Shown here: positions 1 through 43,142 of the stretch, in pieces
Position numbering within the stretch: position 1 is the first letter of the stretch
Layout of the letters: each line of letters opens with the position of its first letter
IMG/VR virus record: IMGVR_UViG_3300012984_000002
Location: 1-43,142 of that record
Length of the DNA stretch: 43,142 nt
Direction: 5' to 3' (one strand)
From: a virus
Position numbers and translations under genes: made by a program
Notes under the pieces: model-generated
What the model was told of the DNA's origin: nothing
Databases searched by the model: none
The model's input: only the letters and a program-made list of their open reading frames with translations

Positions 1-123
1 AAATAGCGAGTGCGCGGAGACGGCATTCACCTACTACTAAAGTTAAGCCATCGTTGCGCAGAACAATTGGGTGTAGGATACCATAGCCGGAGGTGAAATC
101 GTCTGCTAGATTACGTAAGTGTT
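1..123. repeat. Terminal direct repeat (copy 1), identical to 43020-43142
   Basis: The first 123 bases match the last 123 exactly. The repeat lies inside one open reading frame, and joining the ends restores an uninterrupted 436-codon ParB-methyltransferase gene. This is best explained as the overlap left when a circular or circularly permuted genome is assembled. A true packaged terminal repeat is possible but less likely, because it interrupts a coding gene far from the terminase genes. Confidence 0.95.
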
Positions 124-190
124 CAGCGGAGAATTCTTTGCGTTGACGATCGGGAGGGATTATGACTGCTGAATAGTGAATAGTTTTCAT
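1..190 (-). CDS. ParB-DNA methyltransferase fusion, N-terminal part (runs off left edge)
   Basis: These are the first 63 codons of the gene that continues at the right end of the window. The start ATG is at 188-190, preceded by AGGAA about 8 nt upstream. Residues 54-61 read GECRLRAL, the core of the ParB/sulfiredoxin-like nuclease domain, and residues around 101-113 (encoded at the other end) give the ENTRRKNLT-x-EEA pattern of that domain. The joined protein is 436 aa. In phages this ParB domain fused to a methyltransferase is usually thought to guide DNA binding or nicking, but its role here is inferred. The gene follows the DUF669-like gene, with a hairpin (209-229) in the gap. Confidence 0.85.
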   Translation of the reverse strand, partial: MKTIHYSAVIIPPDRQRKEFSAEHLRNLADDFTSGYGILHPIVLRNDGLTLVVGECRLRALAI

Positions 191-237: not shown

Positions 238-681
238 TTAAATGCGGGCGGTGGCAACGATGTTGGAGCGGATGATAGTTGGGTCTTTCTTATCAGGCTC
301 TTGTGCTACTTTGCCACGGAGTTGGGCACCTACTAACATCATAGGAGTCCAAGGTGTACCAGCTTCGTTTTGACCTACGGCTTCACGGAGTTTACCAATC
401 TGAACATTCTTACCTTCCGCGTCGTCGAGGAGACCTGAATCTGTAAGATCACAGAAGCAAGAGATCTTAGACTTGGTTGGGTTCATACCAGTTACCGCGC
501 AAACTTCTGGGTCGATACATTCAACCTTTGCTTCGAGAACTACCATGTCGTCTTTTGGGTTTTTGAATTCCACGCCTGTGATAGTGAAAATGAAATCACC
601 ATTTGGCATTGGTGGAATACTGGTAGACATTTTGCTTTCGGTTGCTGCATTGAGAAGGACATCGGCATTAAATAAAGACAT
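238..681 (-). CDS. DUF669-like protein, probable ssDNA-binding/annealing partner
   Basis: This 147-aa protein is predicted to be beta-rich. It begins with a short helix, then a strand pair around residues 28-50 (FIFTITGVEFK, VVLEAKVE), a middle segment with a leucine-rich helix (GKNVQIGKLREAVG), and a final strand block (GAQLRGKVAQEP ... IVATARI). This layout and its position directly downstream of a Sak4-like AAA ATPase match the DUF669-type proteins that accompany phage AAA_24/Sak4 recombinases and may bind single-stranded DNA. The start is supported by AAGGAG 7 nt upstream. The family assignment rests on pattern and neighbourhood, not a strong motif, and no catalytic residues are expected. 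Confidence 0.6.
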   Translation of the reverse strand: MSLFNADVLLNAATESKMSTSIPPMPNGDFIFTITGVEFKNPKDDMVVLEAKVECIDPEVCAVTGMNPTKSKISCFCDLTDSGLLDDAEGKNVQIGKLREAVGQNEAGTPWTPMMLVGAQLRGKVAQEPDKKDPTIIRSNIVATARI

Positions 682-3447: not shown

Positions 3448-3645
3448 TCAGTTCACCACGTAAGGTTCAACGATGTTGTTTGGCTGCACAACTTTCTTCA
3501 CCCAGTGATTGGAAACTTTATCGACTGGTATTACATCGAGATAACCATCTTTGTGCTCGTAGATTGCCATTGCTTTCTTCGCAGTGTTTGCACGATAGAC
3601 AGCGTAGCGGTGGACAGGTAGTGGAACTGAAGATTTCTGAATCAT
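3448..3645 (-). CDS. Small hypothetical protein, first gene after an internal promoter
   Basis: This 65-aa basic protein (MIQKSSVPLPVHRYAVYRAN...) has no recognisable domain. A GGAG sequence about 8 nt upstream supports the start. It is the first gene downstream of a good sigma70-like promoter at 3686-3714 and is tightly followed by the DUF3820-like gene. The short strands and charged residues could form a small beta fold; no function is assigned. Confidence 0.6.
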   Translation of the reverse strand: MIQKSSVPLPVHRYAVYRANTAKKAMAIYEHKDGYLDVIPVDKVSNHWVKKVVQPNNIVEPYVVN

Positions 3646-3685
3646 GGTAGGGCTCCAAATTAATTGTAGTTTGATAAGGAAACTA

Positions 3686-3714
3686 ATTGTAGTTACGACT
3701 CTTCAGAGAGTCAA
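3686..3714 (-). promoter_or_regulatory. Sigma70-like internal early promoter
   Basis: Read leftward, TTGACT (3714-3709), a 17-nt spacer and TACAAT (3691-3686) give five of six matches at both elements with ideal spacing. The -35 overlaps the stop codon of the ligase gene. The spacer contains a 5-bp dyad, GACTC-TTCAGA-GAGTC (the latter half shared with the -35 region), a possible operator. TAATTGTAGTT occurs twice, at 3661-3671 and 3684-3694. Confidence 0.6.
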
Positions 3715-4652
3715 CTTAAATCCCAGCGTTCACGCCATCCGATAAATCGTCCGGACCTGGGGACATCCTTAATGCCATAGTTATGGTAACGGTATGTGAA
3801 AATTTTATTCGATAACTGATCACGTATTCTCCACCAGCGTTCACGTTCGTCGAGAGTAATTCCTTTAAAGATTCCAATGGTAAACTCTGCGTGGGTGTGG
3901 ATATCCTGCACGTCGAAAGATCCGACAGCTTCATAGGGTATTTGATTCTCAGCATGAGAAGATCGTTGAGTAAATCCGAGGGGAGATTTGGTTGTGTCAT
4001 TGTTGTTCAGCATCATTTGGTTAACACGCAGAATCTTGCATTCCGACTGAGCTTCGAGCTTCATGCGCAGGAGGAAACACTCTCGGAAGGTGGAGCGACC
4101 GTACTTGTAGAGACCCGAGGCAGAGCGGATGCAGATACCTTCGTAGCCTAGTTCAGTATAGTCGGCGAAGAGCTTGAGGACTTCTTCTGGGGTGTCGCAT
4201 TTAGTATGAGTCACTAACTCTGATGGAGCTGCAGGGTAAAATAAATCTTGCATTAACTCCAGACGCTCGGAGAACGGGGAAAGATAATTTAACCCGTGAT
4301 ATCTAAAACAATCTGGAACTATATCGAATATGTAGAAGTTGAAATCTGGCGTTCCAGCTTTTGTCATGATAGCTGATTGGGTGGTGTGGTAAAAGAGTTC
4401 TGTAGTGGGATCTCCAACTCCTAACTCTCCATCAACACCACAATAGAATCCTCTCAGAGTTTTCTGCATGTGTTCGTTGGGGAGGTGGCGGCCTGAGTTA
4501 GACTGAACGAAAGATACTCCAGTTGTCGCTCGCACTCCATCCAGCTTAGGTGATACGTACACAGGATACTTGAGCTGCGGTAACATGGAGGGACTGAGCG
4601 TGAAATTGTTAGGGCATTTCATAGGACGAAAGCCGAGTGGTAAGTTATGCAT
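3711..4652 (-). CDS. ATP-dependent DNA ligase
   Basis: This 313-aa ligase seals nicks by adenylating a lysine and then the 5'-phosphate. Nucleotidyltransferase motif I is SPKLDGVRA (34-42, with Lys36 the predicted AMP acceptor). Motif III is split over VDGEL (73-77) and YIFDI (107-111), motif IV is YEGICIRS (170-177) and motif V is LLRMK (194-198). The C-terminal 100 residues are the expected OB-fold. The length is close to small T7-type ligases (about 350 aa). It is translated from a TAGGAGA ribosome site that overlaps the stop of the preceding 27-codon gene. It probably joins Okazaki fragments together with the split DNA polymerase. Confidence 0.9.
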   Translation of the reverse strand: MHNLPLGFRPMKCPNNFTLSPSMLPQLKYPVYVSPKLDGVRATTGVSFVQSNSGRHLPNEHMQKTLRGFYCGVDGELGVGDPTTELFYHTTQSAIMTKAGTPDFNFYIFDIVPDCFRYHGLNYLSPFSERLELMQDLFYPAAPSELVTHTKCDTPEEVLKLFADYTELGYEGICIRSASGLYKYGRSTFRECFLLRMKLEAQSECKILRVNQMMLNNNDTTKSPLGFTQRSSHAENQIPYEAVGSFDVQDIHTHAEFTIGIFKGITLDERERWWRIRDQLSNKIFTYRYHNYGIKDVPRSGRFIGWRERWDLS

Positions 4653-7987: not shown

Positions 7988-8481
7988 TATGATTGCTCCT
8001 GTGCTTTTTGGATTGTTTCGAGGTTGAGGAGGTAGTAAACCGCCGCCTCACGTTCTTCAGCGTTCAACGGACGATTGCGCGCTGTGTCGTGCAATCCGAT
8101 ACTGAATGCTATTTCCCCGTGACGAGGGCCAGTTCCATAGGGTCCGTCATGGCGCTGGTCTGTCCAGTGGGCATAGTTTTTCAGCCCCAGATATTTTGTT
8201 TTCAGTGTGTCTAACTTCTCTGTGGAGGCGAAAATGGAGACCGCTTCGCGCACTAATGCGTGGCGCTCGATGGTGGAAGCTTTGCCATAAACTCTGACGA
8301 TGCATTTGGCTTGCTGGATTTTATCCAAGTCCAGTCCCGCTTTTGCTTGATTGCGCTGGGATATGAGCGATTCTTGGCGGTCTTGAAGAGATTTCAGTTC
8401 TGACTTGAACTTGGCGCGAAGCTTTTGCTCTTCGTATTCGAGCGTGTCTAGTTCGCTGATGATGTCTAGTAGACAGGTCAT
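7987..8481 (-). CDS. Hypothetical coiled-coil protein
   Basis: This 164-aa protein has an N-terminal coiled coil of about 45 residues (ELDTLEYEEQKLRAKFKSEL and on), followed by a compact segment containing GPYGTGPRHGEIAFSIGLHD with a Gly/His-rich loop. A C-terminal helix follows (LNAEEREAAVYYLLNLETI). The loop is conserved-looking but does not match a known catalytic motif. It overlaps both neighbours. The coiled coil suggests dimerisation. Confidence 0.6.
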   Translation of the reverse strand: MTCLLDIISELDTLEYEEQKLRAKFKSELKSLQDRQESLISQRNQAKAGLDLDKIQQAKCIVRVYGKASTIERHALVREAVSIFASTEKLDTLKTKYLGLKNYAHWTDQRHDGPYGTGPRHGEIAFSIGLHDTARNRPLNAEEREAAVYYLLNLETIQKAQEQS

Positions 8482-8711
8482 TCTGGTAACTCCTGAGTTT
8501 CGGTTGCGTTTTCTTCGAAGCCAGAGCCTTTCAGCTTATCCTGCGCGTCGAGGAAGTTGGTGATTAACATACCTGCGATCTGGGACTGCATTCCGTGGCG
8601 AGGTTTGCCAAGGATCGGGTCAATGCAGAATTCATTCAGTCGTTCCACGAGTTTGACTGGAAGCCAGAAGGTTTGGTATTTGTGTGGGTCGAGCTGTTTT
8701 TGGCGTGCCAT
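8478..8711 (-). CDS. Small ribbon-helix-helix-like phage protein
   Basis: This 77-aa protein has the pattern seen in many small phage proteins with a possible ribbon-helix-helix fold: a strand (TFWLPVKLVERLNEFC), a GKPRHG turn and a helix (MQSQIAGMLITNFLDAQ). If so, it would bind DNA as a dimer and is a candidate regulator, since no other repressor is visible. The start at 8711 is preferred because AGGAA lies about 8 nt upstream. An upstream in-frame ATG at 8735 has no comparable ribosome site. Regulatory function is inference. Confidence 0.55.
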   Translation of the reverse strand: MARQKQLDPHKYQTFWLPVKLVERLNEFCIDPILGKPRHGMQSQIAGMLITNFLDAQDKLKGSGFEENATETQELPE

Positions 8712-11006: not shown

Positions 11007-11041
11007 AGGGTTCCCCTAGATTGTTGGAAGTTATCTGGATG

Positions 11042-11110
11042 GAATAGTTATTGGTTAGACTGAAGTCCCAGCTGACTAGAGTTGCGCCAACCACGAACCA
11101 ATAACTATTC
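11042..11110 (-). ncRNA. Putative structured RNA leader with 15-bp closing stem
   Basis: GAATAGTTATTGGTT (11042-11056) is a perfect inverted repeat of 11096-11110. Inside the 39-nt interval are GTTG-CGC-CAAC (11081-11091) and AGTC-6 nt-GACT (11064-11077). The AGTC at 11064-11067 could instead pair with GACT at 11058-11061. On the leftward transcript this would fold as a long stem closing a multibranched loop with two mutually exclusive hairpins, 36 nt ahead of the gene that starts at 11006. It could be an RNA leader, a small RNA or a DNA cruciform; no known RNA family is recognised. Confidence 0.45.
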
Positions 11111-11118
11111 ACGGGTGA

Positions 11119-11148
11119 AGTATGACATGAGGGGAAACTGCTGGTCAA
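11119..11148 (-). promoter_or_regulatory. Possible leftward promoter
   Basis: Read leftward, TTGACC (11148-11143), an 18-nt spacer and CATACT (11124-11119) resemble a sigma70 promoter (five of six and four of six). It sits just downstream of the paired TACTTGTA element (11153-11192) and upstream of the structured region and the small membrane-protein genes. Moderate match only. Confidence 0.35.
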
Positions 11149-11152
11149 TAGG

Positions 11153-11192
11153 TACTTGTAGTTTGACTGGTAAAGTACTTGTATTACTTGTG
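11153..11192. promoter_or_regulatory. Paired TACTTGTA operator-like element (copy A)
   Basis: TACTTGTA occurs at 11153-11160 and again exactly 23 bp later at 11176-11183, with a third variant TACTTGTG at 11185-11192. The same pair with the same 23-bp spacing, an identical AAAG before the second copy and identical TTA after it occurs on the opposite strand at 13660-13693 (28 of 34 positions match). Each unit is a near palindrome (TAC-TT-GTA). It is probably a binding site for a phage or host regulator. Confidence 0.5.
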
Positions 11193-11218
11193 GCATTCCT
11201 TTGCCTCGTCTGCTGCAT

Positions 11219-11647
11219 TCAGCCCTTGGGTCTGGCGTCGGCGAGCAGGTCTTCCAAGCTTTGCGCGGGAGCTTCGATGGGAGTTGGGTTCGAACTGGGA
11301 ACTGGTGGAGTGTCAATCATCCCTTGCATAATAGCTTTGTAGCTCTTGGCTTCAGTCCAAGCTGGACCTGCGGCGAAGACTTCTATGTAGTGGGTTAGTT
11401 CGGGGTGCTCAGGGTCTAACAATTCCTTGGGGAGTTTCTTGCATGACACTGAGCTGAATTGAATTGCGTCCCAGTCTGGGTGATTGGTGTCTCGGAGTGC
11501 GACTCTGTACCCATTGAGGTCGAAGCGGAGTGAATTGGCGGCTTCTTTGGTGAGTGCGCCAGTCTTGAAGCTTCCGTGCGCGTTGCACTGAGCGAATATC
11601 TTCGCGTTCATTGGGTGATAGGTGCTGGGATCTTTGGACTTGGGCAT
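11219..11647 (-). CDS. Hypothetical protein
   Basis: This 142-aa protein begins MPKSKDPSTYHPMNAKIFAQ and has a beta-rich centre (SLRFDLNGYRVALRD; AIQFSSVSCKKLP), then a proline-rich, probably disordered C-terminus. No domain recognised. It lies between the intrinsic terminator at 11674-11709 and the control region at 11007-11218, so it may be transcribed by readthrough past the terminator. A GGGAGA sequence precedes the internal start region only weakly. Confidence 0.6.
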   Translation of the reverse strand: MPKSKDPSTYHPMNAKIFAQCNAHGSFKTGALTKEAANSLRFDLNGYRVALRDTNHPDWDAIQFSSVSCKKLPKELLDPEHPELTHYIEVFAAGPAWTEAKSYKAIMQGMIDTPPVPSSNPTPIEAPAQSLEDLLADARPKG

Positions 11648-11673
11648 AGGGAGATTCTCGTTTTGGTTGCAAA

Positions 11674-11709
11674 AATAAAGCCTGAGAACTTTCGCGCTCA
11701 GGCTTTATT
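11674..11709 (-). terminator. Intrinsic terminator, leftward
   Basis: AATAAAGCCTGAG (11674-11686) pairs perfectly with CTCAGGCTTTATT (11697-11709), a 13-bp stem with a 10-nt loop. On the leftward transcript the stem ends in UUUAUUUUU. It lies 39 bp after the stop of the 11749-12225 gene, so that highly expressed-looking gene is terminated, with the rest of the operon served by readthrough or new promoters. Confidence 0.85.
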
Positions 11710-11748
11710 ACCGTTTAGCTTTACTGCTGAAATGTTACTTTGTTGCGA

Positions 11749-12225
11749 TTAGATGCCGAGGCCTGAGTCGCCTGCTTCGATGCTTGCTTGAGCAGCTTTC
11801 GCTAACTCTTCCGCACGCATTTTGGCAAGTTCGGCTGCAACGACTGGCTTGTTTCTCAGAGCTTTGATTTGTTCTTCGCTGAGAGCTTCTAACAGAGCTT
11901 CGACTTCGGTTTGCGCTTTGCCAGTGATGTTGATCAATGCCAAGACCAATTTAGTGGTATTTCCACCTGTGCCAGCTGCACGACCTTGAGTCCATTCGCC
12001 TGCATAGATGCGTTCTAATTGAGCGATGAGTGCTTCTTCAGCTTCCTTCGGATCTTTCTTGCTTGCGTAGGAGTCCTGCAACTTCTGGCGCACGCCGTAT
12101 GCGAGGAATTTCGCTTTGATTTCGTCCGAGAATTTGTCGTATTCCGCTGTTACCACACTTCCGGTGCTGAATGTGAAGACTGCTGAGTTTGGTGTCTGGG
12201 TTACTGCGCATTTTGCTTGAGACAT
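11749..12225 (-). CDS. Conserved phage protein of unknown function, paralogue of 13065-13592
   Basis: This 158-aa protein aligns along its length with the 175-aa product of 13065-13592. Shared elements are an early strand ending in F-x-x-G-x-x-x-TAE, a helix with KQ/RQ-KLQDSYA, the segment GEWTQGRAAG (GEWSSRGKAG in the other), NITGK (NISGK) and a C-terminal helix ALRNKPVVAAELAKMRAEEL. The pattern is a recurrent phage family without an assigned function. The gene has its own upstream control region of more than 500 bp and its own terminator, so it is probably strongly expressed. Confidence 0.7.
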   Translation of the reverse strand: MSQAKCAVTQTPNSAVFTFSTGSVVTAEYDKFSDEIKAKFLAYGVRQKLQDSYASKKDPKEAEEALIAQLERIYAGEWTQGRAAGTGGNTTKLVLALINITGKAQTEVEALLEALSEEQIKALRNKPVVAAELAKMRAEELAKAAQASIEAGDSGLGI

Positions 12226-12485
12226 TTTGATTACCTTTCTGAGTTGTGGGCGAGATGCCGATTAAAGTTTCCTTGGGCGCTGAAGATTTGCGCGTTTGGA
12301 ATTGGTAATTTGCGGGATTTCGCGTGGGTTGTCAAGGTTTGAATGCAGAAGGTGGGGCATGGGTGACCGATTGGTGCGGGATTTGACCGTGGATGTCGGA
12401 ATGGGGGCAAGTGGCCTTGATTCCTTGTTCCTATTGGGTGCCTTGAATTTACAAGTAGATTTAGGAAGGAATAAAGGGGTTTGTT

Positions 12486-12519
12486 CTTATATCAAAAAAA
12501 ATACTGTATATACATACAC
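12486..12519 (-). promoter_or_regulatory. Candidate leftward promoter with LexA-like operator
   Basis: Reading leftward, an extended -10 TGATATAAG occupies 12494-12486, directly after an A/T run. The near-LexA box CTGT-ATATACAT-ACAC (12504-12519, seven of eight half-site positions) lies where the -35 region would be. No good -35 hexamer is visible, consistent with an extended -10 promoter. It would drive 11749-12225. Confidence 0.4.
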
Positions 12520-12679
12520 CTATAACACACCACTGTATATCCATACATAATAGCAATATACAAGTGAATACAAGGCACCGACTAGAAACAAGGGAACAAG
12601 GGTACTACCCCTATTTTAGACACTTCCGGTAACTTGTGGACAATCGACGGGAAGGCACTTCCTAGCCCCTACAAACGAC

Positions 12680-12714
12680 AACGGGGAAGGTCATATAAAT
12701 GACGCATCCCCGTT
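12680..12714. other. Two-part hairpin downstream of 12748-13068
   Basis: AACGGGGA (12680-12687) pairs with TCCCCGTT (12707-12714), and inside GTCAT (12690-12694) pairs with ATGAC (12699-12703) around a 4-nt loop. It lies 34 bp after the stop of the leftward gene. There is no U-run, so termination would be inefficient; RNA stability or Rho-independent pausing are alternatives. Confidence 0.5.
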
Positions 12715-12747
12715 TCCAACCTTCCTATAAATGAAGCCTGTTTCGTC

Positions 12748-13068
12748 CTATTGCGGTTCTTTGTAATACTTGAGCTGTAGCACTTCTGTCTTACCACCTT
12801 GCCCCACTCTCACTGGCATAGCCTTCATTACCTGCATCACCTTATAGGTATCTTTCAGCCAATTGCACAGTTCCACTGTATTCTCCCAATCGGTGGGAAC
12901 TTTGATCACCAGTTCCTGATCGTGGTCGAAGAAGGTTAGCTCGCACATCTCCCACGTGTTCCCAATAATCGCTTTCGCCATTGAGTTACGTTGCGCCTGC
13001 ACGATAATGTCATAGATCACATGGGCGCTTGCGTTAATAACTCCACACACTACAATACGCTTAATCAT
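12748..13068 (-). CDS. Hypothetical protein
   Basis: This 106-aa protein starts MIKRIVVCGVINASAHVIYD and has alternating strands and helices, with WEMCELTFFDHDQELVIKVP in the middle. No domain is recognised. ATGA overlap with the upstream 175-aa gene shows coupled translation. It ends ahead of the 12680-12714 hairpin and the long control region. Confidence 0.65.
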   Translation of the reverse strand: MIKRIVVCGVINASAHVIYDIIVQAQRNSMAKAIIGNTWEMCELTFFDHDQELVIKVPTDWENTVELCNWLKDTYKVMQVMKAMPVRVGQGGKTEVLQLKYYKEPQ

Positions 13069-13592
13069 ACCGCACCTCCGAACAAATCAGCCAATGAAGT
13101 GTCGTCCCCTACCGCTGCGGCCAAACGTTCAGCCTTCAACCGTGCAACCTCTGCCATCACTTGTGGCTTCTTAGCCAGCGCTTTCTTCTGCGCTTCATCC
13201 AATTGTCCGATCAGCGCCATACACTCTGCCAAAGTCTTTCCGCTTATATTCACCACAGCCTGCACTAGATCGTTATTCCCTTCGCCTGCTTTCCCTCTAC
13301 TACTCCACTCGCCACCTACCAGCGTATCAATCCTTACTTGCGCAAAGGTATACGCCTCACTCGCAGTCTTGATACCGCTATAAGCATCGCTAATAGTTTG
13401 CTTCAGCCCGTGCATCATGGCTGCGTGCCTAATCCCCGCGGTCAGTGTGTCGGGATCTATCTCTGCTGTTTGTCCGTTGCCGAACGTCCAGACCAGCTTC
13501 CCCTCAACCTCAACACACTTAGCCTTAAACCCAGCCTTAGCCTGAGCCGCGCTCACTTCCACTTCAACACCTGCGATTTTATTAGCGTTCAT
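13065..13592 (-). CDS. Conserved phage protein of unknown function, first gene of leftward unit
   Basis: This 175-aa protein is the first gene leftward of the divergent control region. It is homologous to the 158-aa product of 11749-12225: shared TAE-, HGLKQTISDAYSG-, GGEWSSRGKAG-, NISGK- and ALAKKPQVMAEVARLKAE-like segments are in the same order. Duplicates of an early-expressed gene, each with its own control region, imply a dose-dependent role; DNA binding is possible but not shown. The final residues (SLADLFGGAV) form a short tail absent from the other copy. Confidence 0.7.
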   Translation of the reverse strand: MNANKIAGVEVEVSAAQAKAGFKAKCVEVEGKLVWTFGNGQTAEIDPDTLTAGIRHAAMMHGLKQTISDAYSGIKTASEAYTFAQVRIDTLVGGEWSSRGKAGEGNNDLVQAVVNISGKTLAECMALIGQLDEAQKKALAKKPQVMAEVARLKAERLAAAVGDDTSLADLFGGAV

Positions 13593-13619
13593 GATATATA
13601 CCTACCTATTATCTAGTTC

Positions 13620-13633
13620 AGGCGATATTGCCT
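13620..13633. promoter_or_regulatory. Palindromic operator candidate
   Basis: AGGC-GATATT-GCCT is symmetrical at 12 of 14 positions and sits about 30 bp upstream of the leftward start at 13592, a typical operator position. No cognate repressor has been identified. Confidence 0.35.
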
Positions 13634-13659
13634 AAGTGCAGCTTAACATACTGGTGTAT

Positions 13660-13693
13660 TAATACAAGTACTTTGCACGCCAATATACAAGTA
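13660..13693 (-). promoter_or_regulatory. Paired TACTTGTA operator-like element (copy B)
   Basis: On the minus strand TACTTGTA occurs at 13693-13686 and 23 bp later at 13670-13663, followed by TTA. It matches the element at 11153-11186 at 28 of 34 positions, including the AAAG immediately before the second unit. The element lies 70-100 bp upstream of the first leftward gene, where it could control the early promoter. Confidence 0.5.
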
Positions 13694-13845: not shown

Positions 13846-13874
13846 TTGACTTTCTCTTGACCACTGAGGAGAAT
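13846..13874 (+). promoter_or_regulatory. Candidate late promoter for the terminase-structural operon
   Basis: TTGACT (13846-13851), a 17-nt spacer and GAGAAT (13869-13874) give five of six and four of six matches to the sigma70 consensus. The predicted transcript starts near 13880, which rules out the upstream ATG at 13873 and supports terS starting at 13912. Confidence 0.45.
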
Positions 13875-13911
13875 GCGGCCACACTCGAATCACTTACCGA
13901 GGGTTCGCACT

Positions 13912-14418
13912 ATGTCCAACTTCGTCTCAAATCAAGTCCTTCTCCGCGTTTCGCACAAGCACGAGGCTGTGATGATGCACATGCTTCAGTTCCCACAGCA
14001 ATCGCTGAATGAAGTCGCTGCGATCTTCGATATGACTCCGAACTATCTCAGCATCCTTGTGCACTCCGATACCTTTCAGGCGAAGTTCCAGGAGCTGAAG
14101 AAGGAGCACTTCCACGTGCAAATGGAATCGCTGCCAAAAAAGATTGAAGCCTTAGCGAACTTAGCGTTAGATCGTTGGGGTGAAGAGATCGCAAGTTCAG
14201 CAGATCCTAAGTTCATCAAGGACTCCGCTGACAGATTGCTTCAACGCTTAGGCTATGGTGCGACGAAGGGTGTGCAGGTAGATATTAACGTACCTGCCAC
14301 CACTGAACCCTCCATCGCCAAAGATGCTATCGACGCTGCAAACAGAGCCCGTGCAACTCTGCGCGCAATTAAAGCCACTGCACTTGAAGGGGAGTTCCAT
14401 GAAATTACGCCCAACTAA
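13912..14418 (+). CDS. Terminase small subunit
   Basis: This 168-aa protein probably recognises phage DNA to start packaging. A helix-turn-helix is visible near residues 29-49 (SLNEVAAIFDMTPNYLSILV), followed by a long helical oligomerisation region (FQELKKEHFHVQMESLPKKI and on) and a polar C-terminus expected to contact TerL. The length suits small terminase subunits. Position immediately before the nuclease-like gene and TerL supports the call. GAGGG lies 9 nt before the ATG at 13912. Confidence 0.75.
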   Translation: MSNFVSNQVLLRVSHKHEAVMMHMLQFPQQSLNEVAAIFDMTPNYLSILVHSDTFQAKFQELKKEHFHVQMESLPKKIEALANLALDRWGEEIASSADPKFIKDSADRLLQRLGYGATKGVQVDINVPATTEPSIAKDAIDAANRARATLRAIKATALEGEFHEITPN

Positions 14419-20649: not shown

Positions 20650-20964
20650 ATGAAAATCACTTCGAAAGACTTAGTTGCAGACCGTAAAGACGAAAGCAGT
20701 TCATCATCTCCTTGTTGCATAATGAAGGACGACGATGACGAGCGGAAGTTTTATGTTTCCGTACCTGTGACGGAAACAGCTATTAAAGGGCTGGCGATTG
20801 GAACGTCAGTTGAGTTAAATGTGAAGGGAGTTCTGAAGGAAGTTCGTACCCGTTGGTGTGCAGAGGTAGAAATAGAGGTAGGGGAAATAACCCTAGCCAA
20901 TTCCAAAAATGACTTTGAGGCCCTGATAGATGAAAACGACGAAGAATATGACAATGAAGACTAA
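20650..20964 (+). CDS. Small acidic hypothetical protein
   Basis: This 104-aa acidic protein follows the capsid terminator. It has a serine-rich, then Asp-rich segment (DESSSSSPCC; KDDDDER), strands YVSVPVTETAIKGLAIG and CAEVEIEVGEITLAN and an acidic tail. A small beta-fold capsid or decoration protein is plausible from location, but no family is recognised. Its end overlaps the glycosyltransferase by 35 nt. Confidence 0.55.
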   Translation: MKITSKDLVADRKDESSSSSPCCIMKDDDDERKFYVSVPVTETAIKGLAIGTSVELNVKGVLKEVRTRWCAEVEIEVGEITLANSKNDFEALIDENDEEYDNED

Positions 20965-21646
20965 GCAACCAGCCCTTCCAGAAGCTCGCATTTTAGTAGC
21001 TGTTCCCAGTGGTTCTACGTGGGAAGCTGACTTTGGGATGAGTATGCTGGCAATGGTAGCTAACTCGAATATAGTTCCTGAAGGTTATTCGAATATTAGT
21101 CTTGGAGTGCAGAATACGAAAGGAAGTATTCTTCCCCAGCTGCGTACCAAGTTGGTGCAAAAAGCTCAAGAGATGAATGCAACTCACATTCTTTTCATTG
21201 ATTCAGATATGCAGTTCCCAGCGTGGACATTGCATCGGTTGCTGGAAATGAAGAAAGAAGTAGTTGCGTGTAACTGTGTTACTAAATCGCTTCCGACAGT
21301 CCCAACCGCCCGCTTCAAAGATGGGACTTTAGCTGGAACTCCAATGCGTCATTATGATTATGATGGAAAGGTAGATTGCATTCCTGTCTGGCGCGTGGGT
21401 ACGGGTGTGATGCTGATTGAGATGGGTGTGTTTGATAAAATCGGTCACCCGTACTTTCCGATTACTCAGCTTGAAGACGAAATTATCGGTGAAGATTGGG
21501 GATTTTGTCAACGTTGTGAAGACGCAGGTATCGAAATTTTCGTAGATGTAGTGCTGAGTCCTTATATTGGGCATGTCGGGAGATTGGAATATACCGCGGC
21601 TATGCAGGACATGAGCAAGTCACAAGTAGTTTCCAATCCAAACTAA
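20930..21646 (+). CDS. GT-A type glycosyltransferase
   Basis: This 238-aa protein has the features of a GT-A fold nucleotide-sugar transferase: a Rossmann start ARILVAVPSGSTW (19-31), the metal/nucleotide motif THILFIDSDMQFP (about 84-96, DxD), the acceptor-side pattern RVGTGVMLIEMGVFDKIG, and the catalytic region IIGEDWGFCQRCEDAG near residue 185. Substrate and acceptor are unknown; sugars could be added to virion proteins, DNA or a host target. In-frame ATGs at 20948 and 20954 are alternative starts. The gene lies between capsid and head-tail genes. Confidence 0.7.
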   Translation: MKTTKNMTMKTKQPALPEARILVAVPSGSTWEADFGMSMLAMVANSNIVPEGYSNISLGVQNTKGSILPQLRTKLVQKAQEMNATHILFIDSDMQFPAWTLHRLLEMKKEVVACNCVTKSLPTVPTARFKDGTLAGTPMRHYDYDGKVDCIPVWRVGTGVMLIEMGVFDKIGHPYFPITQLEDEIIGEDWGFCQRCEDAGIEIFVDVVLSPYIGHVGRLEYTAAMQDMSKSQVVSNPN

Positions 21647-21659
21647 AAGTAGGTTCGAT

Positions 21660-34000: not shown

Positions 34001-36070
34001 AAAGCGGATGCGGATGAGCGCGCTGCAAGTTTGCGGAAGCAAAATATTGGGCAGGGAAATTTCATAGGTGTGGATAAGTTGGCTAAAACTGCTGATAAAT
34101 CCCTTCAAGGTATGCCTCCAATTTTGCTGCAGGAATTGCAGAACCGGTTGCCTGTAGAGCAGCACCAAGCGATTCGCGATGCAATGGCGGCTGCAGCGCC
34201 TGGACGTGGATTCGTTAAGCATATGCTGAAGAAGCAAGGCGTAGCTGGTGCGAGTAAGAATTTCCGCAGAGCTTATATGTCTTACATGGATAGTTTCGAT
34301 CGGCACGTAGGAAGACTGATGACTGAGGATCAGCTGGATTCAGCTATTCGCGCGGTAAGCCAATCTGCGGACAGCCTAGTGGGGCAGGGGAAAGACGCGA
34401 CCAATCGTCGGATGGTGCAAGAGATGATGGCTGACACTAAGAATTATCTCTTCAACCCAGGCGAGGAGTTCAAAGGCTGGGGAGCGTTGGCGTTCAATTA
34501 TTATCTGACCGGTGTGCCTAAGCATGCGGTGTTAGCGATGCTGCAGTTACCTCTAGTTTCCTTCCCTCACCTGAGTGCTAAGTACGGCACGCTGAAAACT
34601 ATGGAAGCGTTCACCCGTGGGATGGGGAGACTGGTGCAAGGGAAATTGGATCTAACGAAGCTGCCACAAGCACTGCAAGATGCTATGCAACAGGGTGAGA
34701 AGGATGGAATATTTTCCCACACCATGATGCGCGAGCTGGGAACGCTGGCACAAGCGCACAACTTGGATCGACTGCTACCTAAGGTGATGGGGAAGGGAGA
34801 CAAGATTGCACAAGGTTGGCAAAATTTTGCGTCTGTAGCTGGTGCGTTGTTCCATTATTCAGAAGTATTCGCACGTTGGAATACCTTTCATGCAGCTTGG
34901 GAACTGGAGCACCAAAAATCTGGAGACTCAGTGAAAGCGTATCAAGCTGCTAAGGATGCAGTGCAACGTAGCCACTTCGTATTTACTGCTGAGAACTCAC
35001 CTCCAATTATGCGGGGGAAAGCTAGACCGCTGTTCGTATTCCAAACATATACCCAACACATGCTGGAGTTTTTGCTGGGATCGAATAATCCTGGAAAGTG
35101 GCGTGCAATGGCAATGCTGATGATGGCAGCTGGTGCTAGTGGTTTACCCTTTGCGCAGGATGCGGAGGAGATCACTAACTGGGTGATTAAGAAGTATAAC
35201 AAGATGACTGGGGATTATTCCACTATTCCTGATGTGAAGCAGAACATTCGGAAGGAATTGGTGCAGATGATGAATGTGGCTGGCGAGGATCAGGCGAAAG
35301 TAATCGCGGATTTAGCGCTGGATGGTGCGGGTAAATGGGGTTTTGGTTTACCTTGGATAGGAGAGATGACAGGGATTCCTACCGGTAGTTTTGACCTAAC
35401 TCCGAGTCTGAGTATGGGTAGCATCATACCAGGAATTAATGCTATCAATGCGAAGAACTGGAACCAGGGGCTATCCGATGCGACGAGTGGAATTGCTGGA
35501 CCTGCGCTTGGAGTGCCTCTCCAAATGATGCAAGCGATGACGGAATCTCAGGCAAGTGGCGATTGGCGTTTAGGAAAGTTCCTGCCGAACATGATTGAGA
35601 ATCCAGCGAAGGCTGTTAAATGGGCGGAAGATAGAGGGATTAAAGATAAGTATGGAAGAACAGTTCTAGACTTTGATCCTGAAAACCCTTCTCACCGTGC
35701 GGATGCGATCTGGCAGGCGATGGGCATGCAGCCTACTAGACTGAGCGTTGAGCGAGATGCAAGATGGGCAGCTCAAAGAACGAATGAATACTACGGGACT
35801 ATCCGTATGGAGCTGATTTCGCAGATGGAAACTGCTGTTCGCGCGCATAGTGATGAGGCTATTGCAGATGTCACTAAAGCCATCATGAAGTATAATGATA
35901 CAGTGCCTGCGGCTGGTTACAAGCTGAATGCTGCTGCGATCAAAGGCGGAATTATGGCTAGATTGAAAAGTGATATGCTGTCTGGGAAAGGATTGCCAAG
36001 TAGGAAGTTTGATATACCAGCGACAAAAGCGTTGCGGGATTCCTTTCCCGTGGAACCTGCTAAGCAATAG
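31079..36070 (+). CDS. Giant internal virion protein with HEFGH metallopeptidase motif
   Basis: This 1663-aa protein is the largest gene. The N-terminus (first 60 residues) is acidic and proline-rich. A zinc metallopeptidase-like motif MAHEFGHLF lies at residues 545-553 (His547, Glu548, His551), and KEYMAQQMAR (Glu628) could supply the third ligand, as in gluzincin-like proteases. Further on are long helical regions, hydrophobic segments near 1148 (HAVLAMLQLPLVSF) and 1344 (AMLMMAAGASGLPFA), and a terminal acidic end. It resembles the large ejected or polyvalent proteins of podoviruses. The start at 31079 has GGAGA upstream; it overlaps the upstream gene by 17 nt. Confidence 0.7.
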   Translation: MIPNLDEFLDTGTDLTNPQPSVPIPQALPNTQGFSAPQVPDQLDSFFSEPQSLDAMLDTEPADVHVQDDGDGVLGWWHKNVSDNPTLPFNKNTWEGIGEAAKARWERVKLGAEATGLSMLAGEIGDAAPDQYKAELVQNRDQELNKIYGDVRKNMELEAQATPQNLGLIQKGVRGAVLGVPDMAATLGLTALTRSPIPAVMMQSAAGGMESKATAGAAGLSDSAGNAKASIDALINGAFSFLPTKALGSLVDAAKTGSADVIKQVMGTIGHQIVGDQLATAAQSLNDYEFGLDKELENAESWEDAVKIQAERQAVSAIRTGLLSGVTAGGIGAMRSKGGREPVEIPLKQGEETAPSETPLQQEVAPEPKPFQGPVISQDLLNARLDADRAEQKFQSTVAKVNENPLDGFLDEGNIPTMEGGRQADAQIDHINVFDKGVWKPAKQAIAEQEKPSVYTGDLNDWMTGNDPARVKAATEYADFQSRAKPILESWQQDLLPDTSVVLGAIDPNSPKLGTARVAKGIGRILTNPMNFEGEFSDSLGYNLMAHEFGHLFADTEYQKLGPKAKLALEHEYQAWKSTQTPETTMGEIQRTRDTPIDVSSHPMNGRTLAESESRSPEWTEYYLSRKEYMAQQMARYQTYDQKAMKVAKPFFARLVAKLQSFHKEHGDEFAPTQTFQTWVDSLSARNKAARLENSEGDRQAEAWDKVSKASIEKVSPAQFHMAEMLETQRAYDEWRKSYGDLAKKPSERISSLEGKLNSPEFKENLDGGTDNMSKFKKNFLTIMQNAKNNPHIPGLLAGTPEGGPGFIKVMEDHGNFRRAETKLTDSFLRDWRKLGALQIAKVGELATTADEISREIGRKLTPGELAREAKFLGITADGMDVYNQMQANFSRKLDQLHAAMVTRAERMGWSDENAKAQHLEDLKGRVEALKNSNYFPSTRFGDHVVKVVAGKPGTFKGKFYNQGDTLLREHYESKADADERAASLRKQNIGQGNFIGVDKLAKTADKSLQGMPPILLQELQNRLPVEQHQAIRDAMAAAAPGRGFVKHMLKKQGVAGASKNFRRAYMSYMDSFDRHVGRLMTEDQLDSAIRAVSQSADSLVGQGKDATNRRMVQEMMADTKNYLFNPGEEFKGWGALAFNYYLTGVPKHAVLAMLQLPLVSFPHLSAKYGTLKTMEAFTRGMGRLVQGKLDLTKLPQALQDAMQQGEKDGIFSHTMMRELGTLAQAHNLDRLLPKVMGKGDKIAQGWQNFASVAGALFHYSEVFARWNTFHAAWELEHQKSGDSVKAYQAAKDAVQRSHFVFTAENSPPIMRGKARPLFVFQTYTQHMLEFLLGSNNPGKWRAMAMLMMAAGASGLPFAQDAEEITNWVIKKYNKMTGDYSTIPDVKQNIRKELVQMMNVAGEDQAKVIADLALDGAGKWGFGLPWIGEMTGIPTGSFDLTPSLSMGSIIPGINAINAKNWNQGLSDATSGIAGPALGVPLQMMQAMTESQASGDWRLGKFLPNMIENPAKAVKWAEDRGIKDKYGRTVLDFDPENPSHRADAIWQAMGMQPTRLSVERDARWAAQRTNEYYGTIRMELISQMETAVRAHSDEAIADVTKAIMKYNDTVPAAGYKLNAAAIKGGIMARLKSDMLSGKGLPSRKFDIPATKALRDSFPVEPAKQ

Positions 36071-37244
36071 CCATTTTTGGCTTTCCACCGACGACCTTCA
36101 TAACGCAGCGTTTAGATTGCAGAAGGTCTTTGATGGATTTCTCGAATTCATCCCACCCCATGATGTTAGCTGCTAGGGCGTAAAGTTCTGGCAGCGTCAA
36201 TTCTCCGTGAGAAGTTAAGAAACGTACGAGATGATTTGCTTTCTTGCCTGCAAATGAAACTCCGATATTACCGAAAACCTTCGGCATGTCTGCCTCAAGC
36301 TCAGTCATTTTATTGATCGCCATCTGCAGGTGGTGTTCTTCGATCACTAGGTCGTCAGATTCTGACAAAGAAAGTATCATTGCGAGTTTATGGATGTGAG
36401 TCTGCTTTCGCGCAATGTAACCGTCGAAGTTAGCTGTCGTTAGATGTGGTGGAAGGTGTGTAAAGAAATCTGTATACCATGCAGTCCCTAATTTCTCCGC
36501 TTCTGGCGACAAGGTCATCGCCCCAGCTAACTTCGAAATATGTGTTAGGTCTGCAATTAAATCCGCCTTCAGTTTCAGGTGATCCTCTGGTAAAAAGGTA
36601 TTCGGATAGGCTACGAAGTTCCTCTTCTCTTGTGCGTAGATGAAAATCGTGCGGGAAGTGAACCCCCCACCAATCATATATTCTGGGAAGGCGGAGCATA
36701 TCCAACTGGGAGTTGTGCAAGCTATGAGATTTAGGCATGGGTTTTTAATCGAATGTTCGCCTGAACCCATCGTGGCTTTCTTCCAGTCACCTTTACGCGA
36801 ATCCCAGAGATCAACGAGGATATCTACCATCTCGCGATTGGTTGGATCAAGGAAGGTGCCGAATTCAGATGCAACGATTGTGATCGCAGACTGGATTAAT
36901 ATTTCCCCTTTTGGGGTGTGGAATACTTTTTGAGATTTAGACAACTGCTCAACGAGCTTCTGCCAAGTTACAGCTGAAGGACCGAAAACTACGTTCGGGA
37001 CTTTTGCCAGGAGTTCGGCGCCGATTCCAGCTGTAGTGGATTTCGATACGATACCTGGTGGTGCAACGAAAACGATGTAGAAGTTAGGCACCCATTGCCA
37101 GTAGCCCATCTCCATCCAAACCTGACGACGTACTGCGCCGGCGAGGGTAGAGATAGCTGTCCAATAATGGAAGTGATCGGGCGCTTCTGAGTGTTGGGTA
37201 TAGCGTAGGTAGGCTTCTATAAAGTTTGGAAAATTCCTACTCAT
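36060..37244 (-). CDS. DUF3987-like helicase/primase-type ATPase
   Basis: This 394-aa protein shows a variant Walker A, FVAPPGIVSKST (59-70, Lys69), Walker B-like ITIVASEFGTF (121-131, Glu127) and an arginine finger region GGGFTSRTIF (192-201). These fit the phage DUF3987 type of replicative helicase-like protein. The C-terminal 100 residues form a winged-helix-like segment (LVRFLTSHGELTLPELYALA). The gene converges with the giant protein, overlapping its stop by 11 bp. It likely unwinds DNA for the split polymerase. Primase activity is not evident. Confidence 0.7.
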   Translation of the reverse strand: MSRNFPNFIEAYLRYTQHSEAPDHFHYWTAISTLAGAVRRQVWMEMGYWQWVPNFYIVFVAPPGIVSKSTTAGIGAELLAKVPNVVFGPSAVTWQKLVEQLSKSQKVFHTPKGEILIQSAITIVASEFGTFLDPTNREMVDILVDLWDSRKGDWKKATMGSGEHSIKNPCLNLIACTTPSWICSAFPEYMIGGGFTSRTIFIYAQEKRNFVAYPNTFLPEDHLKLKADLIADLTHISKLAGAMTLSPEAEKLGTAWYTDFFTHLPPHLTTANFDGYIARKQTHIHKLAMILSLSESDDLVIEEHHLQMAINKMTELEADMPKVFGNIGVSFAGKKANHLVRFLTSHGELTLPELYALAANIMGWDEFEKSIKDLLQSKRCVMKVVGGKPKMAIA

Positions 37245-37245
37245 T

Positions 37246-37893
37246 TTATTCTCCAGGGAAACGGGTTATATTACCCGCGAGATCTACTTGGTACGAGCAT
37301 CCTACTCTGTGTAAAGCTTCGTGAGCATCCATAGTGTATTTGATTTCAATCGAATCTCGCCAATTTTCCGGCAGATAGTAAAGGACCTGTTCACATCGAC
37401 GCAAGAGAGTGATGTAATAGGATTTCCAGTGGAATGGGGTGATCCAATCCGCTAGAGGCTGGGAACATTGGACTAAGATGAATTGGGTGAGCGCTGGGCA
37501 ATATACGTTGTGGCCAAGGGAGATTAGTTTTTCGGTGATATGCATAAGTTCTGCTGAGTTCACGTCGAGACTGTGTCCCCCTGTGTAGACTGGCCCAACT
37601 AGGATCGAGCTGAGTTCGGGTGAATATACACGTATTTTGTTCCCCATACTAAAAGTAGTTTCATCACTCAGCATTTTCACCGGTACATCATTAATCACTG
37701 TACCCACATCGGCTGGGTTTCCACTGACCAATTCACAATCGCACATCTCTTCGTATGTTTCCGGATGTTGGTAGAGCCTGAGAACTTTTAATCTTCTATT
37801 CAACATCGTGCGCAATGAGCCAGATCCTTTGGCTCGTCCGAAGATTTTATCTGAACCAGTGTAGTGGTAGATTTCTCCGATTAAGATATTCAC
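37246..37893 (-). CDS. DUF4406/nucleoside deoxyribosyltransferase-like protein, GTG start
   Basis: This 215-aa protein ends with a domain resembling DUF4406 and nucleoside 2-deoxyribosyltransferase-like proteins. It has RVYSPELSSILVGPVYTGG followed by NSAELMHITEKLISLGHNVYCP, a C-terminal LRRCEQVLYYLPENWRDSI, and a final helix that carries AHEALHR. The first 80 residues are a separate small beta-fold. The GTG at 37893 is supported by GGGGAG 7 nt upstream and by overlap with the polymerase stop as TAGTG. Enzymatic activity toward nucleotides is only a family inference. Confidence 0.65.
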   Translation of the reverse strand: MNILIGEIYHYTGSDKIFGRAKGSGSLRTMLNRRLKVLRLYQHPETYEEMCDCELVSGNPADVGTVINDVPVKMLSDETTFSMGNKIRVYSPELSSILVGPVYTGGHSLDVNSAELMHITEKLISLGHNVYCPALTQFILVQCSQPLADWITPFHWKSYYITLLRRCEQVLYYLPENWRDSIEIKYTMDAHEALHRVGCSYQVDLAGNITRFPGE

Positions 37894-38597
37894 TAGCAAT
37901 CTCCCCAAGATGTGGCTGAAGTTTTGTAAGAAGCTGGGATTATAAGAGGTTCTACATAAGGAAGTTCGATACGCATGCAAGCGAGAACTTTCTCAATCGC
38001 TTCTTCGGTACGCTCAGTTGGCCACTGAAGAACAAGTGAATCGTGCACCTGCATAAGTGGCTGAATCCAAGGCAGAGTTTTGAAGATTTGAATGAGCGCT
38101 TTGGAGATGATTAAACCAACGGTAGATTGTGGTCCCCAAGCAAGAGCTTGTGGTAGAAGTCTGTCGTCGATGCGATCAAAGTACATACGCTCATAGCCTA
38201 GAATGTTGGTCACCTTCCGGTTGTTGAGCAGCCCCCACCAGACTCTATCATGCCACTCCTTGATGCCTGGGTGTAAGGTGAACCATTGGGCTTGGAACTC
38301 GGTTGCACGCGCTAATGATACACCCATCGCTTTAGCGCACGTTGCAGCCTTCCCGCCGTAGTTGGTAAGGTGGACTCCAGCTTTAGCCTCTGGGCGGGAG
38401 CATCCCATCATGGCTGCATTGAGGTCGTGCAGGGAGCCAACACCTGCACGGAAGAAATCCATGAGCGATTTGTCCTGCGCCTCCCACGCAACCACCTGGG
38501 CGTCAGCACCCTTCAAGTCAAAGTCCCCGATTGTCATACCTGGATCTGGGATGAAACACTTTTTAATGTTGGGCAGTTCTATTGTTTTAGCGACCAT
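37893..38597 (-). CDS. Family-A DNA polymerase, C-terminal half (palm and fingers) of a split polymerase
   Basis: This 234-aa protein carries the catalytic centre of PolA-type DNA polymerases. Motif A is GDFDLKGADAQVVAW (24-38, Asp25), motif B is R68-x3-K72-x3-H76-x3-YG (68-81; the Phe762 position of Klenow is His), and motif C is QVHDSLVL (183-190; Asp186, with Ser instead of the usual second Glu). There is no exonuclease or thumb; these are in the gene at 39552-41168, whose product ends at the conserved NLQNIPS just before this part begins. The two proteins must associate. The split leaves no residue missing. Confidence 0.8.
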   Translation of the reverse strand: MVAKTIELPNIKKCFIPDPGMTIGDFDLKGADAQVVAWEAQDKSLMDFFRAGVGSLHDLNAAMMGCSRPEAKAGVHLTNYGGKAATCAKAMGVSLARATEFQAQWFTLHPGIKEWHDRVWWGLLNNRKVTNILGYERMYFDRIDDRLLPQALAWGPQSTVGLIISKALIQIFKTLPWIQPLMQVHDSLVLQWPTERTEEAIEKVLACMRIELPYVEPLIIPASYKTSATSWGDC

Positions 38598-38598
38598 G

Positions 38599-39361: not shown

Positions 39362-39362
39362 A

Positions 39363-39548: not shown

Positions 39549-39551
39549 AAT

Positions 39552-41461: not shown

Positions 41462-41899
41462 TTACCCCTTGATTACAGTGCCAGAACCATCGGCGTCACC
41501 AACTGGAGTTTTAAGTACCTCTCCTATTCGAACGGGAGTAGGTGGGACTGTGTAGGGAACTTGGCCTTGGTCCAGTTGGCGAACTACTTTTAGTACCTGA
41601 GATTCCTTGAGAGAGTGGAACTTCTCTCCATAGTAAACGATGTGGATGATCTCACCTGATTGGGTCCAGATTGATTGGACGTATTCACCTTGAACTGAAG
41701 TTGAAGTGATACCACCTTTACCCATAGCAATCTCTACTTTCGCGCAGAGTTCTTTGTAGGTGTTGGCCACCTTGAATTCTTCCAACGTGGTGGGTGCGAA
41801 AGAAAGTCTGGGATTTTTATTGAAGTATTCTTGAGCGGCAGCTTTAGCTAGTTCAAGTTCCGAGTTAACTGTTTCAAAATTAAACGTGATTAAGTACAT
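41462..41899 (-). CDS. Hypothetical protein
   Basis: This 145-aa protein has an N-terminal strand and helix (YLITFNFETVNSELELAKAA), then strands (IWTQSGEIIHIVYYGEKFH), and a Pro/Gly-rich end. No domain is recognised. AGGAGA precedes its start and its first base overlaps the last base of the methyltransferase stop. Confidence 0.6.
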   Translation of the reverse strand: MYLITFNFETVNSELELAKAAAQEYFNKNPRLSFAPTTLEEFKVANTYKELCAKVEIAMGKGGITSTSVQGEYVQSIWTQSGEIIHIVYYGEKFHSLKESQVLKVVRQLDQGQVPYTVPPTPVRIGEVLKTPVGDADGSGTVIKG

Positions 41900-43142
41900 T
41901 ATAGATCTCCTTTGAATGTGTGTTCGTTAAGGCGAGATGCAGCTAGATTATGGTCGGCCTCATCACGATTAATGCCAGTGGCGTGGAGATGCAGGAAATT
42001 CGCCGCCGGAAAAATCGGGCCTCCTCCCGCGAATGGATCAAGCACCTGATCTCCAGGTTGGCAGGATCGTTCCAACAGGTTAATATAAACTGAGGCTGGC
42101 TTCTCAGCAGGGTGCCCAGAAACTGTCGTACGCGGGCAATTAGAGATGACGTCAGGCTGGATTGAATTGACTTTGCGATCTCCTTTATTTGCGAAGAGGA
42201 CGCAATCGTAGGAATTCCGCGGTGCATGTTCAGGGCGAGGTGCGATGCCCAATCCGTTAGCTGGTCCAACAGCTTTGTGCCATATGATTGGTCGATTCCA
42301 GACGTTCCATCCAACTTCGGCAAATATATCTCGTAGGATATGCCAATGCCGTGGGTCGCAAAAGAGATACAAGTGCGCTTGATCTGATGCCACTCGGAAG
42401 AGTTCAGGGGCAACTGTGCTAAGAAGATCTTTGAAGTATGTGAAGTCGTCTGCATATTTGTGGTCCTGCTCTTGGACGGAAGAGAATTTATCTGCGCCTA
42501 CTCCGTAGGGTGGGTCGGTACAGATGCATGCGTAAGTACCTGAAGGTAAAGTTGCAAGAACATCTCGTGCATCCCCGAGGAGATTTTTGTGAGATCCAAT
42601 GTAGTTGGAAGATATGAGTTTGCCGAGAGTGTTTGTAAGATCTGTGTTGTGTGTGCGGCGTATGGCTCTAAGAGCTTCACCTTTGGATTTTGCATTGGCG
42701 ACCTCTGGCATATCAGCGTGTTTGGCAATCAGGGTCATATCGCGGATTGCTTCGGTGGTGGAGGATGGGGTATCCACTGGGTGGAGTTCTTGCATGAGTT
42801 GCTTGTCGGTGATTGCTGGGAATTCAGCACGACGCAAGGCTTGGTAGCGGGCAACTGCTTTTGCCTCTTCCATTAAGGTGAGGTTTTTACGACGAGTGTT
42901 CTCATGAAGTTCAGCTGCAACTAAATCTACTTCAGGTAGATCGGCGAGGGCTGAGTATGGGATGTGACCGATGGGAAGAGTCTGGCCTGCATGTTGGATT
43001 GGCTTTCCTTCGGCAGCGCAAATAGCGAGTGCGCGGAGACGGCATTCACCTACTACTAAAGTTAAGCCATCGTTGCGCAGAACAATTGGGTGTAGGATAC
43101 CATAGCCGGAGGTGAAATCGTCTGCTAGATTACGTAAGTGTT
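41899..43142 (-). CDS. ParB-DNA methyltransferase fusion, C-terminal part (continues off right edge)
   Basis: This is the 3' portion of the 436-aa gene that begins at position 190 after circularisation. The ParB-like segment (ENTRRKNLTLMEEAKAV near 103-119, using the joined numbering) and a helical linker precede a class-beta DNA methyltransferase. Motif IV is CTDPPYG (about 230-236) and HPAEKP (366-371) and motif I DPFAGGG (391-397) follow, the order of beta-type N6-adenine or N4-cytosine methylases; DPPY favours adenine. It may protect phage DNA from host restriction or mark it for regulation. The target sequence is unknown. Confidence 0.85.
   Translation of the reverse strand, partial: HLRNLADDFTSGYGILHPIVLRNDGLTLVVGECRLRALAICAAEGKPIQHAGQTLPIGHIPYSALADLPEVDLVAAELHENTRRKNLTLMEEAKAVARYQALRRAEFPAITDKQLMQELHPVDTPSSTTEAIRDMTLIAKHADMPEVANAKSKGEALRAIRRTHNTDLTNTLGKLISSNYIGSHKNLLGDARDVLATLPSGTYACICTDPPYGVGADKFSSVQEQDHKYADDFTYFKDLLSTVAPELFRVASDQAHLYLFCDPRHWHILRDIFAEVGWNVWNRPIIWHKAVGPANGLGIAPRPEHAPRNSYDCVLFANKGDRKVNSIQPDVISNCPRTTVSGHPAEKPASVYINLLERSCQPGDQVLDPFAGGGPIFPAANFLHLHATGINRDEADHNLAASRLNEHTFKGDL
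43020..43142. repeat. Terminal direct repeat (copy 2), identical to 1-123
   Basis: Second copy of the 123-base end overlap; see 1-123. It falls in the ParB-methyltransferase frame and confirms that the window is a full genome unit. Confidence 0.95.

Follow-up and report, generated by a model that had tools for sequence, protein, structure and literature searches.

This study concerns a family of dispersed, nearly palindromic DNA elements and the protein that may bind them, in the virus record IMGVR_UViG_3300012984_000002 of IMG/VR; the whole stretch of 43,142 nucleotides is called the window hereafter. Its two ends are identical (1-123 equals 43020-43142) although the record is classed as linear, and the window therefore represents a complete genome of about 43.0 kb. 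The early operon starts at 13.6 kb and runs leftwards past the genome end as far as 36 kb; the late one runs rightwards from 13.9 to 36 kb. A first-pass annotation of this DNA had drawn attention to a pair of TACTTGTA units separated by 15 nucleotides, which recurs in two control regions, and had taken it for the mark of a phage-specific regulon.

Both pairs lie exactly where they had been placed, and the 28 identical positions among 34 aligned ones (82%) were reproduced; TACTTGTA-N15-TACTTGTA occurs with zero mismatches nowhere else in the window (sites 2 and 3 in Table 1). TACTTGTA itself is present six times, against 1.05 expected. When pairs with at most two mismatches were scanned over all spacings, a start-to-start distance of 23 gave five pairs and the other spacings a mean of 0.1, so that the genome-wide list comprises five sites rather than two. 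The 15-bp spacer is also kept across the five, as GTTT-N7-AAAC, and their consensus is a 31-bp near-palindrome, TAcTTgTA-GTTT-N7-AAAc-TAcTTgTA. Matrices built with one site left out recover all five sites at scores of 23.7-33.0 (shuffle maxima ≤20), and there is no sixth site near this range in the genome, the next-best position scoring 11-15 in the held-out matrix scan. That the dispersed family is genuine can hardly be doubted.

The core of the first description, a repeated phage-specific element with two putative protein contact blocks about two DNA turns apart, is supported, while several of its details have to be revised. A palindrome of ~31 bp fits the element better than a direct pair does, and relatives show clear palindromes. 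Nor is the element restricted to two control regions: the site at 21621 is inside the late operon, that at 37627 is in an open reading frame (ORF) between polymerase and primase, and orientation is independent of transcription, three of the five sites being opposed to it. Among the extra single copies that had been listed, the one at 12450 is exact and those at 11185 and 12559 carry one mismatch each; an exact copy at 4102 had been overlooked. The binder suggested at first, a small ribbon-helix-helix-like protein encoded at 8478-8711, is not supported, being too rare: homologues of it could be recognised in only 3 of the 29 relatives, whereas most of them have a palindrome family. It matched no Pfam or NCBIfam family. 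A sigma-70 promoter with hexamers 23 apart was rejected for poor matches and inconsistent orientation, and recombinase core sites with 12-bp arms and a 7-bp spacer were rejected since the spacers differ among the sites.

Table 1. Palindromic sites and associated genes in the window (held-out, score with the leave-one-out matrix; HTH, helix-turn-helix)
Feature	Coordinates	Strand	Remarks
Site 1	3661..3691	+	TAATTGTAGTTTGATAAGGAAACTAATTGTA; between ligase ORF 3711-4652 (-) and ORF 3448-3645 (-); from the spacing-23 scan; held-out 26.3
Site 2 (first-pass annotation)	11153..11183	+	TACTTGTAGTTTGACTGGTAAAGTACTTGTA; intergenic 11007-11218; held-out 33.0
Site 3 (first-pass annotation)	13663..13693	-	TACTTGTATATTGGCGTGCAAAGTACTTGTA; divergent early/late region, ~195 bp upstream of the small-terminase ORF; held-out 31.4
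Site 4	21621..21651	-	TACTTTTAGTTTGGATTGGAAACTACTTGTG; from the spacing-23 scan; spans the stop codon of ORF 20930-21646 (+) and terminates 9 bp short of ATG 21660; held-out 31.6
Site 5 (weakest)	37627..37657	-	TACTTTTAGTATGGGGAACAAAATACGTGTA; from the spacing-23 scan; between the polymerase C-part and primase, within ORF 37246-37893 as called; held-out 23.7
ParB-HTH-N6_N4 DNA methyltransferase fusion (proposed binder)	190..1, then 43019..41899	-	436 aa; spans the end repeat
First 63 codons of the fusion gene	1..190	-	ATG at 190
DUF3987 primase	36060..37244	-	a palindrome is within ~450 bp of it in 17 of the 24 family-bearing genomes
Small terminase ORF	13873..14418	+	phrog_2538; downstream of site 3

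Is such a family peculiar to one genome? Megablast against the window matched no named phage. Protein searches led to Vibrio phage VS-ABTNL-3, Microcystis phage Mel-JY34, Bacteriophage sp. MW202489 and many IMG/VR contigs, mostly 40-55% identical to the window in terminase and primase. None of these relatives has the window element; with its spacer it occurs in no IMG/VR contig, and the bare TACTTGTA pair occurs in 86 contigs, none with the conserved spacer. The best early match, in contig L114, was rejected as coding sequence conserved as protein. Repeats found de novo in the intergenic DNA of relatives, by a search that did not demand palindromes, nevertheless proved palindromic: TACCATTAA-N7-TTAATGGTA in six copies in G002, and TATATGGTGTG-N7-CACATTATATGGT in five copies in G044. 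A palindrome search added GGGGaggTTAAT-N6-ATTAAcctCCCC, common to G012 and G007, GGGTTTAC-N6-GTAAACCC, common to L006 and G022, and CCCGGGGATTA...TAATCCCCGGGG in G027, among others. About 26 of the 30 phages that encode the fusion protein of Table 1 have a ~30-bp palindrome family of their own, in 3-9 and mostly 4-8 copies, a count that involves judgement and includes G005 and G010, which have a motif in common and three copies of it each, as well as the weaker L005, G011, G013, G022, G023 and G026. Families that merely reflected coding repeats (G049, the collagen-like G011, G013) or terminal repeats (G058) were discarded as noise. In the nearest relatives found, at ~50% protein identity, the palindrome is different, often at the same junctions, and the closer pairs G018/G019, G007/G012 and G027/L033 retain the element sequence.

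Presence of the family goes together with the fusion. When genomes were scored by the excess of the fourth-best site over the shuffled maximum, under a minimum site distance of 1 kb, values of 18-33 were obtained for 18 of the 30 genomes with the fusion, the window among them (20.8), and none of 12 genomes without the fusion reached 18 (top 17.4; shuffles ≤10.7; Fisher p ~2.4e-4). The most informative controls, Pseudomonas phage PaP2 (10.9), Polaromonas phage Tiera (12.4), Caulobacter phage Kuura (11.0) and contig G039 from within the clade (11.1), scarcely exceed the shuffle level, if at all; their layout is like that of the window, and they lack both the fusion and a palindrome family. Desulfofustis phage LS06-2018-MD01, examined afterwards for its distant fusion (25% identity), has nine copies of GCTATGTCCCAAATTGGGACATAGC and a score of 29.6; five of its sites fall in gaps of the gene annotation, and the other four run into an annotated gene that is small or adjacent.

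The sites are also placed in a characteristic way. They are found mostly at gene junctions. With a rough gene call, which predicts too many genes, half or more of the site is intergenic in 63 of 133 cases, against 9.6 expected. Gaps between sites are more even than random in all 22 genomes compared (every one below the null mean; Fisher p 9e-8 for uniform placement and 6e-20 for placement in intergenic bases), with a slight bias towards evenness from some seeds having been forced more than 0.2-1 kb apart. Lineages with unrelated site sequences reuse the same junctions, namely polymerase/primase, upstream of the small terminase gene (terS) and after the major capsid gene. A palindrome is found within ~50 bp of the primase gene in ten genomes, and 100-210 bp upstream of terS in ten, the window included; in five genomes one follows the major capsid gene at a distance of 39-49 bp.

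What, then, may read these sites? The candidate is a fusion of a ParB N-terminal domain, a predicted HTH and an N6_N4 DNA methyltransferase, encoded in the window and in 28 of 29 relatives; all 28 relatives with the methyltransferase also have the ParB part (G002 on inspection). Taken alone, the window protein matches N6_N4_Mtase at E 8e-19, TIGR04285 Noc at 2.9e-9, and ParB_N at E 2.8e-4 and 21.3 bits, under the Pfam cut-off of 26.3. The family profile matches PDB chains of Spo0J (3e-17 to 5e-19), Noc (9e-17) and CcrM (1e-19), and also H. pylori ParB. In the HTH region the profile match reaches residue ~196-213 of ParB/Noc chains, the best PDB alignments covering the HTH only in part, and an AlphaFold model of the G012 fusion has HTH helices at 140-148 and 154-167. 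Foldseek with the whole fusion listed only methyltransferases among its top matches, and the ParB assignment thus depends on profile searches. The nucleotide-binding motifs GERR and ENxxR are conserved in the family, and the window protein reads GECR and ENTRR.

Similarity in the segment taken for the recognition helix, residues 148-166 of the window protein and helix 154-167 of the G012 model, was assessed over 986 pairs by a residual area under the curve (AUC), which measures prediction of motif sharing once replication-protein similarity is removed. The helix gave 0.84, the highest of the segments tested; other segments and proteins gave 0.34-0.71 (ParB_N 0.56, methyltransferase 0.63, orf238 0.71, Sak4 0.46, primase 0.34, polymerase 0.53-0.60). 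On 46 new loci fetched afterwards the helix was again at the top with 0.80, the others ranging over 0.29-0.71. G012 and G007 have motif and helix in common while their ParB_N domains are as divergent as those of unrelated pairs. A genome-wide Mantel test over 18 families was uninformative. The covariation supports binding through the HTH without proving it, and recognition of the site sequence by this helix is likewise supported statistically, not proven.

We favour the reading, at a probability of roughly 0.6, that the five dispersed palindromes are bound by the ParB-HTH-methyltransferase fusion which the phage itself encodes, as a counterpart of parS or of KorB operators. Binding as such, predicted from covariation, we consider quite likely. 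Palindromes are where ParB-type proteins are loaded as clamps before they slide (PMC12704722), and sliding of the KorB clamp silences promoters 1.5 kb away (PMC11790492). By analogy, a fusion dimer would close on its site in a nucleotide-dependent manner, slide away from it, and carry the methyltransferase over several kilobases between sites, possibly blocking promoters as well; 4-9 evenly spaced loading sites would then cover the whole genome. Loading followed by methylation of the DNA between would agree with the even sites and with a methyltransferase that occupies the position of the dimerisation domain. That this is the main purpose of the sites is conceivable, at clearly less than even odds. 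The extension to a clade of tailed phages, in which a ParB-type clamp with its own methyltransferase would load at a few evenly spaced palindromes, spread and methylate the genome, with the HTH and all sites switching sequence together in each lineage, is offered tentatively. KorB-like silencing by the same fusion is the chief alternative use.

A number of observations weigh against the favoured reading. In the window fusion, whose nucleotide binding is putative, GERR is replaced by GECR, and the ParB C-terminal dimerisation domain is absent, the methyltransferase standing in its place. No ParA ATPase was seen among the window proteins scanned, which were a subset of the ORFs. Only 19 motif-sharing pairs lie behind the AUC values, and 23 behind those of the retest; these pairs are not independent of one another, and the helix segment was picked after inspection of the alignment. 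In the retest the raw AUC of the methyltransferase domain was similar to that of the helix (0.91 vs 0.88), and nearest-family assignment was correct in only 10 of 22 new loci. G022 and L006 have a common motif but rather different HTHs; the HTH of L029/L023 resembles that of G027, yet their partial contigs contain no two sites. G005 and G010 have only three sites each, and L004, G003, G020 and G042 encode the fusion with no convincing family, other motif lengths having been tried too. The more distant fusion-bearing Vibrio phage 1.213.O (L318) has no clear family of this type. The latter phage has a ParB/sulfiredoxin gene and eight or more copies of the palindrome TGTGA-N6-TCACA, some of them located at gene junctions; these copies resemble host CRP sites but could also be sites of its own ParB protein.

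Among known systems, KorB and its OB operators on plasmid RK2 (PMC11790492) resemble the phage system in that palindromes dispersed over a small replicon go with a ParB-type protein, a clamp with an HTH in KorB and a predicted one in the fusion. KorB acts together with KorA and lacks a methyltransferase, whereas the phage sites are ~30 bp long and lineage-specific in sequence, with no KorA-like partner known. Chromosomal ParB-parS and Noc share the ParB N-terminal domain, probably the HTH region, and several dispersed palindromes, and differ in that no ParA was seen with the phage fusion, an N6/N4 methyltransferase replaces its C-terminal dimerisation domain, and its sites are even over the whole genome. 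Phage ParB-methyltransferase fusions as such have already been described: the PNAS 2025 survey (PMC12704722) covers ParB-CTPase - N6_N4 methyltransferase fusions, the same domain combination, of which the window protein is a member, with nucleotide-binding assays and suggested anti-defence roles, and its available part mentions no DNA sites for them. Dispersed palindromes of unknown function are known in cluster O mycobacteriophages (PMC4351075); as described in the accessible part of that paper, they too are many, mostly intergenic or at gene 5′ ends, and without meaningful orientation, but they are 34 near-identical 17-bp copies that are not tied to a ParB-methyltransferase. We found no published link between the fusions and dispersed palindromes, subscription papers and preprints lying outside the search. 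With candidate DNA sites, the fusions, whose domain combination had been unexplained, gain a function that can be tested: clamp loading, directed methylation or long-range silencing without ParA. It is unusual that protein and all its sites would change in concert between lineages, with all 4-9 sites of a genome changing sequence jointly and often keeping the same gene junctions; this could be used for decoding the specificity of ParB-type HTHs.

Alternatively, a transcriptional regulator might use the sites as operators. It could be the ParB fusion, silencing at long range as KorB does, or a different phage repressor like that of the stoperators of cluster A mycobacteriophages; once bound, it would halt transcription within operons or shut off early genes. 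Sites at gene junctions in both operons and in the divergent early/late region would suit such a role, and stoperators are likewise dispersed sites for a phage DNA-binding protein. However, stoperators are asymmetric and bound by a monomeric repressor that terminates transcription (PMC9283540), whereas the phage element is near-symmetric and its orientation is independent of transcription; no promoter is consistently positioned at the sites, and their even spacing is unexpected for promoter-directed control. The even spacing favours a genome-wide role over the promoter regulon first proposed, although silencing keeps some probability. We consider operators rather unlikely.

Could another conserved phage protein be the binder, for example at sites of replication restart, recombination or packaging? 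The single-strand-binding-like orf238, the Sak4-like ATPase, primase and polymerase are equally universal, a site frequently adjoins the primase gene, and orf238 has the second-best residual AUC. None of them is by family a sequence-specific palindrome reader, however; PaP2, Tiera and Kuura have a recognisable primase and no sites, and Sak4, primase and polymerase are weak predictors. This is improbable. Equally hard to credit, and if anything more so, are centromere-like sites for partition or condensation in a pseudolysogenic, plasmid-like carrier state. Phage N15 has split centromeres made of dispersed palindromes, which the sites resemble, and the fusion is homologous to ParB. Shea (Fredfastierviridae), a distant family member, is said to be pseudolysogenic (PMC13348215), but PaP2 of the same family has neither fusion nor sites; the lack of a ParA-like gene among the proteins scanned and the methyltransferase in place of the ParB dimerisation domain also speak against partition. 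RNA-level elements (terminators, hairpins) or mechanical repeats with no common binder are very improbable: some lineages, such as G027 with CCCGGGGATTA...TAATCCCCGGGG, could fold strongly, but base-pairing within the window element is poor, with TT opposite TT in each TACTTGTA unit, and it lacks a T tract, other families are AT-rich, and no RNA family matched.

Several minor observations may be added. G001 (IMGVR_UViG_3300021354_000002; L315-L317) has no ParB fusion and carries a short dispersed TGTTACTAGTAACA-like palindrome ~19 times, perhaps an operator or stoperator set. The DNA polymerase gene of the window (37893-41168, -) is split into two ORFs, 39552-41168 and 37893-38681, that are separated by four small ones, and no intron family matched this region; in Vibrio phage VS-ABTNL-3 the polymerase is likewise in separate ORFs. 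The small, nearly universal protein encoded at 238-681 (-), adjoining the Sak4-like gene, resembles in sequence an OB-fold single-strand-binding protein, with no family matched. The AT-rich intergenic stretch 12430-12600, which contains GGTGCCTTG/CAAGGCACC as an inverted repeat and ACTGTATATnCATACA as direct repeats, is a candidate replication origin; the single TACTTGTA copies at 12450 and 12559 fall inside it, and ORFs 11749-12225 and 13065-13592 (-), apparent paralogues, flank this putative origin region.

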